The notes under the pieces: model-generated
What the model was told of the DNA's origin: nothing
Database searches by the model: none
What the model saw: the letters and a program-made list of their open reading frames with translations, nothing else
Shown here: positions 57,719-64,000 of the stretch, one piece after another
Layout: every line of letters begins with the position of its first letter
Numbering within the stretch: the stretch's first letter is position 1
Program-made: the position numbers and the translations under genes
IMG/VR virus record: IMGVR_UViG_3300009151_000045
Coordinates: 1-64,000 of that record
Strand: one strand, 5' to 3'
Length of the DNA stretch: 64,000 nt
DNA from: a virus

Positions 57719-59425
57719 TTAAACCTCAAATAGTGATTCGTTTAAGATTGGTTTTGTAGGTTCTTTGACAACTTTTTCCATAGTCAAGTCTCCTTCAAAT
57801 TCGATATGCACATTGGCCATGGTGGTTGCATTAGTGATACGATCACCAGTATTGCCTCTAGTACCGATAATACGATCAAAATAGCCTTCGTAGTGTTCTA
57901 CTACATCCATTGCATCTTTTCTATTATCCATGCTAAAGATCAAATCAACAATGTCTTTGAACTTGTTGGGTAATGGACTATAGTCCATAGTTCTACCTTC
58001 TGCTGTGGTAGCACTCATCATTGCTGGAATACAACCTAGGTCGCTTTGACGATTGGCTTCTTGTACAGCATTAATATGCATCCAAACATTATGCCCCATC
58101 ATGATAGCATAAGTGAAGCTATCCCAACTGGTACGTCCTTCTTTACCAACTTTGTTTACATCGCCTGGTGCGTAGATACAAATTTCCTTCATTTGTATTT
58201 GATCCATGATAGGACTATATTCAAACTTGTCAAATATGCCATCTTGTACCACTGCATCTTTGAACAGTCTAGTATCCGACGAATACTTTTTATCATCAGC
58301 TGATGCTTGCATACGATACACCCATTTGTCTGCTGGCGGCGTTTCTGTAGCCATATAAATCTGTCCATTGGCAGTTGCTAAGAATGGACTAGCACAGTCG
58401 AAACTGATAGTAAAGTCTGGATTATGATACTTGCGTACAGCACGTTGGATATCTGTTAGTAGCACTGCCCATTCTAATTTACTGGTACCTAAAAAGTGCA
58501 TCCAATCTTGGTGTCCTTGTTCCAACAATCCATCAAAGCGCAGTGCTACTAATCGTTTGAGAATCAAGTGAACATCACACATGTTTTGTCCACCCATACC
58601 CCAACCGTTGAATGGCTTGTCGTATTTGGTTGGATCGCAAAAGTCTTTCATTTGCTGATACCAATCTTCTGCTTGTGTGTGACTCTCACCTTGTAGCACG
58701 TTCAAAAACTTACATGCACCTGTACGATTTTTAATAAAGTATTCATTATTGTACTTGGTAGCATCTGCGGCCTGCTGATATGTTTCTATGCCTGTGGCCT
58801 TGCGTCCTTCTGGACTGCGTTCTACCCAAGCTGGAATATCAAGAACCATTCCGTATTCCATGTAAGCATCCATCCATGCCAGCACTTGTTCACGTTTTTT
58901 CTGTGCGGCATCGAGTCTGGCTTGATACAGTTTAGGATGATCTACTTTGGTAAATTTAGGATTACCATTTTTATCAGTCTTTGGATGGCCTGTAGGATGT
59001 AATTGCGGAACCAGTTCAACACCTAAGGCATTAACTTCGGCCCACTTAGCGGCAACTTCGGGTCCAGTAGGGTCTCGCCATTCGCCTTCCCACACACCTT
59101 TACCAATCTGGAATCCGCCTGAATCTCCAACTACCCAACTAGTGGAGCGATCTCGATTACGGAACATATCTTCACTGTCGTCCTTCTTAGTCATGTCTAA
59201 GTTAGCATGACCTGCTGAGTACAAGCAATGATCATAGTAGAATATCGCATTGGGATTGAGATAGTTCATAGCTTCAATTCCTAACGGTCCAAAACTTGCC
59301 GGAATACGAGCTGGATCTACATACGGTCCAAAACGTTGTTTGCCTATGAACGTACTATAAAACCCAGACGTAGCTGGCAAAAAGTACGCATAGTCCGATT
59401 GAGTTGCTGTTAAATTTTTATTCAT
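57719..59425 (-). CDS. dpdA: DpdA-type 7-deazaguanine DNA transglycosylase (TGT-like)
   Basis: 568 residues. TGT-family landmarks occur in order: VVGDSGGFQIG (98-108), LNVLQGES (241-248; TGT base-binding GxVQGG), GWGMGGQN (274-281), HFLGTS (310-315) and SFDCASPFL (341-349), whose Asp343 fits the catalytic nucleophile. TGT enzymes exchange guanine for 7-deazaguanine in tRNA; phage DpdA relatives do so in DNA, which protects it from restriction. The zinc motif CxCxxC-x-H of tRNA enzymes is not seen. It shares the genome with FolE, QueE and a QueD-like gene. The protein ends in NESLFEV, similar to the polymerase end NSLFEF, a likely clamp-binding tail. ATG overlaps the upstream stop. Confidence 0.88.
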   Translation of the reverse strand: MNKNLTATQSDYAYFLPATSGFYSTFIGKQRFGPYVDPARIPASFGPLGIEAMNYLNPNAIFYYDHCLYSAGHANLDMTKKDDSEDMFRNRDRSTSWVVGDSGGFQIGKGVWEGEWRDPTGPEVAAKWAEVNALGVELVPQLHPTGHPKTDKNGNPKFTKVDHPKLYQARLDAAQKKREQVLAWMDAYMEYGMVLDIPAWVERSPEGRKATGIETYQQAADATKYNNEYFIKNRTGACKFLNVLQGESHTQAEDWYQQMKDFCDPTKYDKPFNGWGMGGQNMCDVHLILKRLVALRFDGLLEQGHQDWMHFLGTSKLEWAVLLTDIQRAVRKYHNPDFTISFDCASPFLATANGQIYMATETPPADKWVYRMQASADDKKYSSDTRLFKDAVVQDGIFDKFEYSPIMDQIQMKEICIYAPGDVNKVGKEGRTSWDSFTYAIMMGHNVWMHINAVQEANRQSDLGCIPAMMSATTAEGRTMDYSPLPNKFKDIVDLIFSMDNRKDAMDVVEHYEGYFDRIIGTRGNTGDRITNATTMANVHIEFEGDLTMEKVVKEPTKPILNESLFEV

Positions 59426-59618
59426 CTTTTGTCTTTACCCACATTTCGTAGTATGGATCATATCTCCACCCTTCTGGCGGTTCACACGGATCATAGTTTT
59501 GTGGATGTGTAAATGGCGTTTTCGCAGGTGAGTGTCGTTTTTTATATCCTGTTCGAATATAGTCACGCACTAACTCGTCTGCGTATTGATCCGCCCAAGT
59601 GCTTTCCTGTATAATCAT
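59418..59618 (-). CDS. Small hypothetical protein (66 aa)
   Basis: ATG at 59618 overlaps the upstream TGA (ATGA). An N-terminal helix (QESTWADQYADELVRDYIRT) is followed by a Pro/aromatic segment (EPPEGWRYDPYYEMWVKTKD). No known family. The stop overlaps the DpdA start. Confidence 0.6.
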   Translation of the reverse strand: MIIQESTWADQYADELVRDYIRTGYKKRHSPAKTPFTHPQNYDPCEPPEGWRYDPYYEMWVKTKDE

Positions 59619-61716: not shown

Positions 61717-61717
61717 A

Positions 61718-64000
61718 TTAGAACTCAAATAATGAATTAAAAGTATTCTTTTCTTCTGTACTGGCAACATCCCATTTGAGAACACCAATCAAGTTATCTA
61801 GTTTATTATCAATAATGGTCTGTTCCATTTCTGCATGATCAAACGGCAAGTCTTTGAACCATTGTGGCAGTCGTAGTTCATCTACAGGATATGCAACTGA
61901 TGTAAAGCCCAGGGGGTTGGGTTTGAGTTTACACACAATAACCTTGGCACCGTCGGTAATGGCCATTGAATACTTGTCATCATACATGCGCTTGAGTGTG
62001 TTCCAGTTGATACTGGCACGAACATGTCCAGGCATGTTGGCTTTGCCCTGTTTCTTTTCCTTGGCCTGATACTCTGTGATGTTGTTGGCACGTTTAGGAC
62101 TACCTTTTTCCCAACCTGGTCGAGCTTTGAATTTGATACGGAATTCGCTGATATGGTCAAGCACTTCCTGTTCAGGCTTGCCCATCAATACCATTTCAAG
62201 AACATCGCTTAAAAAGTTTTGAATAAATTCCGGAGTGTCACTGCGCTTCAAATCCAAGCCCATGGCTTTGATCTTGCCAGGCTTGCCATCTATATCCTGA
62301 CGTTTACCTTCTTTGTCATATGACAGCACTGCATAACGCTTCTTGGTAATAAACAAGCCTTTGAGAGCAACAATCTCGCGACCAGCTTTGATAACATCAC
62401 CACGCGATTTAGGCACATGAAATGCGTCCAGCATAAACTGCGGGAATGTTTGATTGACTTCGTCACCTATTTGATCATACAGTTGGATCACAGTTTCTTT
62501 TGTCCAAGGAATCAGTCCAGCTTCGATGTCTTTTTGTAGTGTTTTGTAAGCTGAGAAGTAACAGGAGTCAGTGTCACCATAGATAACTGCCTTACCTATG
62601 TGATTGTATTCGCCTGTTACAATTTCATTTACTTTACTCGCCATATGTTTTGCGATTTGGCGCCCGACCAGCGTTGTTGATTGTCCGATTCGTTTATCAA
62701 AGAATCTGCAACCGCTGTTAAGAATAGCACCGTACAGGCTATTAAGATTAATTTTCTTAACAAGCTGTCGCTTATCCCAGTATTCTTCTTCGACTTTGTT
62801 TCCTGCATTGATAGACTCCTTTAGTTTGGCCTGCATCTCTTTACGTTCTGCGTACCAGCGTTTAAGTAGCCCCGGAATGATACCTTCATTTTCGTGGCTG
62901 AAGATAGTGCCATTACTTGAAAGCATCCAGGGCTGATTGCTTTCAAATATCAATCTATATACTTCTGCGGCACTGACCACATCGACATCACCGTTTTCCC
63001 AATCAATAGTGATGTCAGTGCCAATTTCTTGATTCATCACTGATTCGTATTCATGTGTGCCGAACTTGCCTTCCCACGCGGCCGCAAAACTCTTGTTCTG
63101 CGCCATCTTGAGTTCAATGTATTCGTCAGTGCGTGTTTGACGTAGCTGTCCAATAATGGTTTCTGGACCCATGTTGAGTGCTCTAATGGCGCTGGGATAA
63201 AGACTGTTGATGTCTAGTGAGCCGATCCAATCTTGCAATCCTTCTTTGGGATGTGCCACATAAGCACCAGCTGCCGCTGTGTTCTCATCTCTATCGTCTT
63301 TCTTGATACGATTGGGAACAACAAATCCTCTGCGGTGAGCTTCATTGATAATGGCCTGCTCGGTCACAGCCACAGCACCCATTGTGGTTTGTAGCAACAC
63401 AGTATTTTCATGTGCCAATGTATTGGCTAGATCCATGAACTTGAGTTTCTTATCTAATTTTTCAAGAAGCATACAGTCGTTGATGTTGTATTCAACGAAC
63501 GTTTTAAAATCGTTGTTGTACAGTTGATCCAGTGTGCCTTCGTACTGTGTTTTGCGCTCACCCAGTTCATATTCTGCGATAGCATCTAGCCTGTAGGTGT
63601 GACGTTCTTCATAGGTGTACTTGCGATACAGTTCAAGGTAGTCTAGATGTACACGACCAATGTAGTCATAGGTCACACTGTCACGACCGTATTTTTCATA
63701 TTCTCTGCGTTTGGGAAATTGATCGAATAAACAAAACCTACGTGTGTCTTCTTTGCTCAGTGCTTTGACTACACGGTTAGTGGTATAGGGAATATCAAAG
63801 CCTTCCGAGTTCCAGCCACTGATAACATCTGCATCTTTGATCAGATCCAAAAACATGTCTAGCAAGTCAGCTTCTTTTTCAAACAGGTACGTGTTGGGAA
63901 AGTCTTTGACCATCTCCTTGGCATCTTCCATCTTGAGACCCTTGGGCGGAATAGCTAGACAAACCATAGTTTCCATCCATTGTAGGTAAACCGCAATGGC
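61718..64000 (-). CDS. 43: Family B DNA polymerase gp43, 3' part
   Basis: About 760 codons are present; the 5' end lies beyond the right edge, and the frame stays open to base 64000. The exonuclease domain shows DVISGWNSEGFDIPYT and YNINDCMLLEKLD. Polymerase motif A is SLDINSLYPSAIRAL, motif B is KKINLNSLYGAILN and motif C is YGDTDSCYF, all intact. The C-terminus (KNTFNSLFEF) matches the hydrophobic clamp-binding tail of T4/RB69 gp43. It is followed after one base by the dehydrogenase-like gene and then by the clamp gene gp45. Confidence 0.96.
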   Translation of the reverse strand, partial: AIAVYLQWMETMVCLAIPPKGLKMEDAKEMVKDFPNTYLFEKEADLLDMFLDLIKDADVISGWNSEGFDIPYTTNRVVKALSKEDTRRFCLFDQFPKRREYEKYGRDSVTYDYIGRVHLDYLELYRKYTYEERHTYRLDAIAEYELGERKTQYEGTLDQLYNNDFKTFVEYNINDCMLLEKLDKKLKFMDLANTLAHENTVLLQTTMGAVAVTEQAIINEAHRRGFVVPNRIKKDDRDENTAAAGAYVAHPKEGLQDWIGSLDINSLYPSAIRALNMGPETIIGQLRQTRTDEYIELKMAQNKSFAAAWEGKFGTHEYESVMNQEIGTDITIDWENGDVDVVSAAEVYRLIFESNQPWMLSSNGTIFSHENEGIIPGLLKRWYAERKEMQAKLKESINAGNKVEEEYWDKRQLVKKINLNSLYGAILNSGCRFFDKRIGQSTTLVGRQIAKHMASKVNEIVTGEYNHIGKAVIYGDTDSCYFSAYKTLQKDIEAGLIPWTKETVIQLYDQIGDEVNQTFPQFMLDAFHVPKSRGDVIKAGREIVALKGLFITKKRYAVLSYDKEGKRQDIDGKPGKIKAMGLDLKRSDTPEFIQNFLSDVLEMVLMGKPEQEVLDHISEFRIKFKARPGWEKGSPKRANNITEYQAKEKKQGKANMPGHVRASINWNTLKRMYDDKYSMAITDGAKVIVCKLKPNPLGFTSVAYPVDELRLPQWFKDLPFDHAEMEQTIIDNKLDNLIGVLKWDVASTEEKNTFNSLFEF

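Follow-up and report, generated by a model that had tools for sequence, protein, structure and literature searches.

The DpdA-type protein encoded in a 64,000-nucleotide stretch of viral DNA (the window), which represents positions 1 to 64,000 of the fragmentary 93-kb IMG/VR record IMGVR_UViG_3300009151_000045, ends in a peptide resembling the C-terminus of the family B DNA polymerase of the same phage. Judging from its sequence and that of its homologues, DpdA in the family of this phage is very probably a client of the sliding clamp that the phage encodes. Tethering of DpdA to the clamp had been proposed in a first-pass annotation made from the DNA sequence alone, and this prediction is now supported by the matching of DpdA and polymerase tails, by the nature of the tail as a disordered extension of a tRNA-guanine transglycosylase (TGT) fold, by the proximity of the clamp gene, and by the lack of the motif where no such polymerase was found.

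Tails of DpdA and the DNA polymerase

The DpdA protein ends in EPTKPILNESLFEV and the polymerase in EEKNTFNSLFEF, terminating in ILNESLFEV and NTFNSLFEF, respectively. Translation of the open reading frames (ORFs) placed SLFE-type tails on both proteins where the first-pass annotation had seen them, and the two proteins are the only ones with such a tail among the products of at least 60 amino acids encoded by the 93-kb record. The letters SLFE stressed in that annotation are indeed shared, but the conserved unit is instead [F/L/M]xx[L/F/I]F[D/E] followed by a hydrophobic residue. Its comparison with the tail of the RB69 polymerase also needs adjustment: the likeness holds when S-L-F-D-M-F-D-F is aligned with T-F-N-S-L-F-E-F, which from the letters of the two tails we infer to be the sensible register, while the shared letters SLF are out of register.

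In the structural model of DpdA, the predicted local distance difference test (pLDDT) score is below 50 throughout residues 527–568, with a short helix predicted at residues 563–567. Comparison of 13 distinct tails of the same type revealed a linker that varies at almost all positions and a terminal motif LN-x-[SN]-LFE-(V/F/L), in which L, N, L, F, and E are unchanged and the final residue is V, F, or L. The invariant L, N, L, and E are specified by 4, 2, 4, and 2 different codons, respectively. This pattern points to purifying selection on the L, F, and E residues of the motif within a hypervariable linker. The first-pass annotation had made its proposal dependent on conservation of the tail in DpdA homologues, and the tail is conserved: all complete members of the same clade (at least 80% identity; L001–L006 and L008–L014) have the C-terminal motif, and most of the more distant homologues carry it as well, either terminally or further inside the tail.

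Identity of DpdA and the clamp

The AlphaFold model of DpdA has a mean pLDDT of 89.7, and all 21 Foldseek matches at an E-value of 0.001 or less are tRNA-guanine transglycosylases; superposition on 2ash_A gave a VIA Z score of 19.7 and a root-mean-square deviation (rmsd) of 4.3 over 303 residues. In the alignment of 59 homologues, D101, S102, G104, Q106, and D343 are invariant, and G103 and F105 nearly so; by analogy with TGT, D343 is the candidate nucleophile. Known phage enzymes of this superfamily, DpdA of phage 9g and DpdA2 of phage nt-1, place 7-deazaguanines into DNA (PMC6884629). A profile of the window DpdA family matched a protein annotated as "TGT domain" in Vibrio phage GR7B (probability 96.8, E-value 3e-10), and its alignment with nt-1 DpdA2 by hhalign was weak (probability 1.5) with the correct motifs aligned, the DSGGxQ and HxLG elements being common to both. 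No match to DpdA was found in Pfam, PHROGs, NCBIfam, or PADLOC, and a sequence-profile search of the PDB returned no TGT and showed no detectable similarity to solved TGT chains.

The putative clamp protein was likewise undetected by sequence: the PDB profile search gave no clamp, gp45 was found neither there nor among the fold matches listed, and comparison of its profile with nt-1 gp45 (hhalign probability 0.5) revealed no detectable similarity. Its AlphaFold model (243 amino acids, pLDDT 94.6) has the two-domain clamp fold, with the top Foldseek matches all being PCNA (E-value 4e-11), and superposes on yeast PCNA with a VIA Z score of 18.8 and an rmsd of 3.0 over 223 residues. Since the PDB profile searches identified neither DpdA nor the clamp, their folds were established by structure prediction. 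The best structural matches of the clamp are eukaryotic and archaeal PCNA. An invariant Y234-x-Y236 is present ahead of its C-terminus, presumably resembling the YYLAP strand of PCNA.

The TGT fold, the active-site motifs, and the nearby genes for GTP cyclohydrolase I (FolE), which performs the first step of 7-deazaguanine synthesis, and a QueE-like enzyme make DpdA the best name for the protein. As this identity relies on fold and motifs, with neither a library match nor similarity to solved chains, one could alternatively propose a transglycosylase of the tRNA type, or a different enzyme of TGT fold, that does not modify DNA. We consider this unlikely in view of the FolE and QueE genes that the window also contains, of the FolE and QueD genes in the larger relatives, of the polymerase and clamp neighbours, and of the deazaguanine synthesis and incorporation system that a jumbo-phage survey assigns to the related phage PA5oct (PMC7824862). 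Moreover, a clamp-type tail would make little sense on a tRNA enzyme and supports DNA as the probable substrate of DpdA.

FolE and QueD are both encoded in the larger related genomes, most of which have no QueC. Among the family members searched, the window record included, only Vibrio phage 2.275.O was found to have QueC, and the 93-kb record, itself a fragment, yielded no QueD. Given the missing QueC, the base may be 7-carboxy-7-deazaguanine or could be completed by host enzymes. A xanthine phosphoribosyltransferase-like gene (positions 52706–53194) adjoins the deazaguanine genes and possibly has a role in base salvage.

The motif in related phages

An alignment-based scan of IMG/VR found relatives, whereas the PA5oct or 2.275.O proteins used as single queries gave none. 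With one representative retained per 80% cluster, the set comprised 52 loci with 930 ORFs, in which related sequences remain despite clustering. The motif FxxLF[DE] was present within the last 45 residues of 36 of the 52 DpdA proteins, compared with a mean of 1.8 and a maximum of 7 for shuffled tails in 500 trials. A slightly stricter motif, searched for in the last 60 residues, was found in 32/52 DpdAs, 26/48 polymerases, 0/50 clamps, and 5/780 other ORFs (p = 8e-39 for DpdAs versus other ORFs in a Fisher test that ignores relatedness), while 43 of the 48 polymerases have the C-terminal form FxxLFx. In most relatives the DpdA motif lies about 30–40 residues before the end and is followed by an acidic stretch; in some clades it is terminal. 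It persists while shifting between the two positions, between close clades and even within one, and is retained in distant relatives at 27–32% identity.

Phage by phage, the two tails resemble each other. The polymerase and DpdA of phage 2.275.O end in NTDLFDW and NNDLFGW, respectively; in PA5oct, FDSLFGW is at the polymerase end and FNSLFDV is the internal DpdA motif. The corresponding pairs are ALQAFFEF and VLNEFFEF in L098, SETMQQFFEF and EEVMNEFFEF in L099, and NNFDSIFEIG and SNFDSIFDIE in L151, in which the two genes are non-adjacent. The polymerase and DpdA tails of one phage are more alike than those of pairs formed by permutation (p = 0.0004), and with DpdA core distance as the control, a partial Mantel test gave r = 0.29 (p = 0.001) for the similarity of the two tails. 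Co-variation of these sequences is suggestive.

A motif this short could arise by chance or composition, since acidic tails rich in Phe and Leu yield LFE, the DpdAs are related by descent, which inflates counts, and 5 of the 780 background ORFs also carry it. Such an origin appears extremely improbable considering the shuffled tails, the low frequency in background ORFs, the invariance under synonymous change, the retention in distant relatives, and the partial Mantel test. It is also rather improbable that the tail binds a partner other than the clamp, one that likewise recognises polymerase-type peptides or only has a site similar to the clamp pocket; candidates would be the clamp loader or some other protein of the replisome, or DpdA itself through dimerisation or autoinhibition. 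TGT enzymes do dimerise, which favours the last of these options, and the evidence for clamp docking comes from sequence and genomic context. Furthermore, there are at least two peptide sites on T4 gp45, and the clamp loader uses the same face (PMC2988020). Nevertheless, the polymerase is the only other motif-bearing family in the loci, and in T4 and RB69 the polymerase peptide is known to bind the clamp (PMC3012046, PMC12746103). The DpdA gene lies directly beside the clamp gene, and if the peptide bound DpdA itself, one would not expect it to track the polymerase tail.

In 40 diverse loci, the median distance from the clamp stop codon to the DpdA start is 23 nucleotides (30 nucleotides or less in 22 of them), and the polymerase is usually located 20–130 nucleotides upstream of the clamp. 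These short gaps define the polymerase, clamp, and DpdA genes as a conserved cassette. The motif is absent from the TGT-fold proteins of Phosso, L092, L093, GR7B, NCTB, and PhiXhv-16, phages for which the sequence examined yielded no such polymerase.

Several observations weigh against the assignment of DpdA as a clamp client. Degenerate forms of the motif occur in some relatives, for example L104, L120, L154, and L163. The window DpdA has N at the position three before LF, where most relatives have F; an aromatic residue is likewise missing from this position in both the polymerase and DpdA of phage 2.275.O. On the tree, the L-to-F switch is represented by 4 supported independent pairs, with 2–3 changes in the same direction and 0 in the opposite one; the sign test is not significant, the independent changes being too few. 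Finally, DpdA2 of the T4-like phage nt-1 has no motif, despite the presence of gp43 and gp45 in this phage, and clamp tethering is thus not required for DpdA enzymes generally.

The motif was also considered as a general trait of DpdA, and this was rejected, as it is missing in nt-1, the Phosso group, GR7B, NCTB, and PhiXhv-16. As far as the compared sequences indicate, the motif-bearing tail belongs to the DpdA family of the window phage and not to DpdA at large. Other short motifs were seen in the TGT-fold proteins lacking it. DpdA of Sinorhizobium phage Phosso (L086:4971-6620), with a DnaE-type polymerase gene nearby, ends in IVEGLF, and that of a relative, L092 (10001-11617), in IIGGIFS; these ends are perhaps a different, bacterial-type clamp motif. 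The proteins of GR7B and PhiXhv-16 (L089:14972-16588 and L091:12971-14677) carry NKTLFGKEEE and TKTLFSGIEMEE ahead of a basic tail, a possible further docking motif.

No clamp clients besides the polymerase were found in the DpdA flanks searched in the relatives' loci. In the 349-kb genome of phage 2.275.O, the only annotated protein found to end in LF[DEG]W besides the polymerase and DpdA is NVP2275O_204 (L200:2214-2438), a zinc-ribbon-like protein of 74 amino acids terminating in LSSLFEW, which may be a further clamp client, for instance a factor like gp33.

Gene layout and comparison with known clamp clients

The features of the window are listed in Table 1. In the order of transcription, on the minus strand, the polymerase is followed by a UDP-glucose dehydrogenase-like gene, the clamp, some small genes, and DpdA. 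The polymerase frame is still open beyond position 64000, so that the start of the gene lies outside the window. The small gene directly downstream of DpdA (57458–57718) matches the BPSL0761 family. The DNA of the window gave no match to named phage genomes; on the basis of DpdA, the nearest named relatives are jumbo phages such as PA5oct, and kinship with T4 is not close. In PA5oct (L084:8608-13834) the polymerase is encoded in two genes flanking a Hef-like endonuclease gene, and its first piece ends in a sequence resembling the beginning of an intein.

Table 1. Location of the DpdA, clamp, polymerase, and 7-deazaguanine features in the window.
Feature	Coordinates	Strand	Basis
DpdA-type TGT-fold DNA base exchanger, 568 amino acids	57719..59425	-	ORF, motifs, fold, profile match
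Disordered DpdA C-terminal tail, residues 527-568	57722..57847	-	pLDDT, hypervariable linker
Putative clamp-interacting peptide of DpdA, LNESLFEV	57722..57745	-	Conservation, FxxLF[DE] counterparts in relatives
TGT active-site motif DSGGFQ, DpdA residues 101-106	59108..59125	-	59-homologue alignment
Second conserved Asp D343 (ISFDCASP) of DpdA, candidate nucleophile	58397..58399	-	59-homologue alignment
Sliding clamp (PCNA/gp45 fold), 243 amino acids	60168..60899	-	AlphaFold, Foldseek, VIA
Family B DNA polymerase (gp43-like), C-terminal 752 amino acids	61718..63976	-	PF00136 1.5e-39, phrog_262 3.7e-175
Putative clamp-interacting peptide at the polymerase C-terminus, NTFNSLFEF	61721..61747	-	C-terminal form common among relatives' polymerases
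UDP-glucose dehydrogenase-like gene	60940-61788	-	Library match
GTP cyclohydrolase I (FolE)	51266..52021	-	PF01227 2e-37; phrog_2197
QueE-like radical SAM enzyme (7-carboxy-7-deazaguanine synthase)	50020..50874	-	phrog_2076 'QueE-like' 2.9e-51; NCBIfam QueE matches at 9e-14, under the model cut-offs

A mechanism could be proposed in which the TGT-fold domain of DpdA (residues 1 to about 526) replaces guanines in DNA by a 7-deazaguanine base, while the disordered tail of about 40 residues bears a polymerase-type clamp-interacting peptide. This peptide would dock in the hydrophobic pocket of the clamp and tether DpdA to clamps on double-stranded DNA, which would raise the local concentration of DpdA on new phage DNA or make it processive there. 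Exchange of guanine at the replication fork, envisaged in the first-pass annotation, is plausible.

A close parallel is gp43 of T4 and RB69, in which a flexible region similarly leads into a hydrophobic-acidic C-terminal hxx[LM]F[DE]-hydrophobic peptide, with a PCNA-fold clamp encoded nearby. The polymerase peptide occupies a hydrophobic pocket of gp45 (PMC3012046), and loss of the last six residues prevents the T4 polymerase from joining the clamp (PMC12746103). Unlike in these phages, in the window family the peptide is also found on a base-exchange enzyme, and comparison of the clamp with the T4-type gp45 of nt-1 detected no sequence similarity. In T4, the divergent linkers of gp43, gp55, and gp33 lead to interchangeable hydrophobic-acidic C-terminal clamp motifs, and such a motif also functions as a fused internal copy (PMC2988020); since both terminal and internal copies work, there is a precedent for both positions of the DpdA motif. 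Several clients per phage with near-identical tails behind divergent linkers are present in T4 and, by prediction, in the window family, but gp55 and gp33 are transcription factors rather than DNA modifiers. The relation to DpdA of 9g and DpdA2 of nt-1 is one of superfamily: sequence similarity to nt-1 DpdA2 is nearly undetectable, and the latter has no such tail.

Among DNA-modifying enzymes, eukaryotic Dnmt1 is tethered to the clamp through a PCNA-binding motif to modify new DNA (PMC9690074), as predicted here for DpdA, but is a methyltransferase performing maintenance methylation. A phage DNA-modification enzyme tied to the phage clamp is known in T4, where the alpha-glucosyltransferase, which unlike DpdA glucosylates hydroxymethylcytosine, binds gp45. 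According to the account given in PMC13216743, this binding was first reported in 2004 (Sommer); a pull-down published in 2026 confirmed it, and the same study found that the enzyme's share of modification is not due mainly to binding (PMC13216743). For this reason, the timing of DpdA action at the fork is put forward here as a hypothesis. No report of a link between DpdA and the clamp was found in the open-access literature, which leaves out most subscription journals; clamp-bound modification of phage DNA has a precedent, and for DpdA it is apparently new.

The T4 data also bear on the possibility that the DpdA tail does bind the clamp, but serves as a mobile tether or activator on finished DNA or in late functions, and hardly changes how much modification takes place. 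The share of glucosylation performed by the T4 alpha-glucosyltransferase is set mostly by promoter strength and translation (PMC13216743), and clamps remaining on T4 DNA also serve late transcription (PMC2988020). Nothing decisive speaks against this explanation, which we regard as a possible though less favoured one; it departs from tethering that promotes modification only in what binding leads to, and our confidence in the two therefore overlaps.

Phages with 7-deazaguanine DNA need to modify new DNA before host nucleases arrive, and a clamp peptide on DpdA is a simple and testable mechanism for keeping pace with its synthesis. If true, DpdA would be the second phage DNA-modification enzyme among clamp clients, after the T4 alpha-glucosyltransferase, and the clamp-type tail would provide a sequence marker separating DNA-acting from tRNA-acting TGT-fold enzymes. 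It is about as likely as not that, throughout a large and diverse family of jumbo phages, guanine-to-7-deazaguanine exchange is the work of a replisome-borne DpdA, with the polymerase and DpdA sharing the three clamp pockets or competing for them, so that the genome would be disguised while it is being made.

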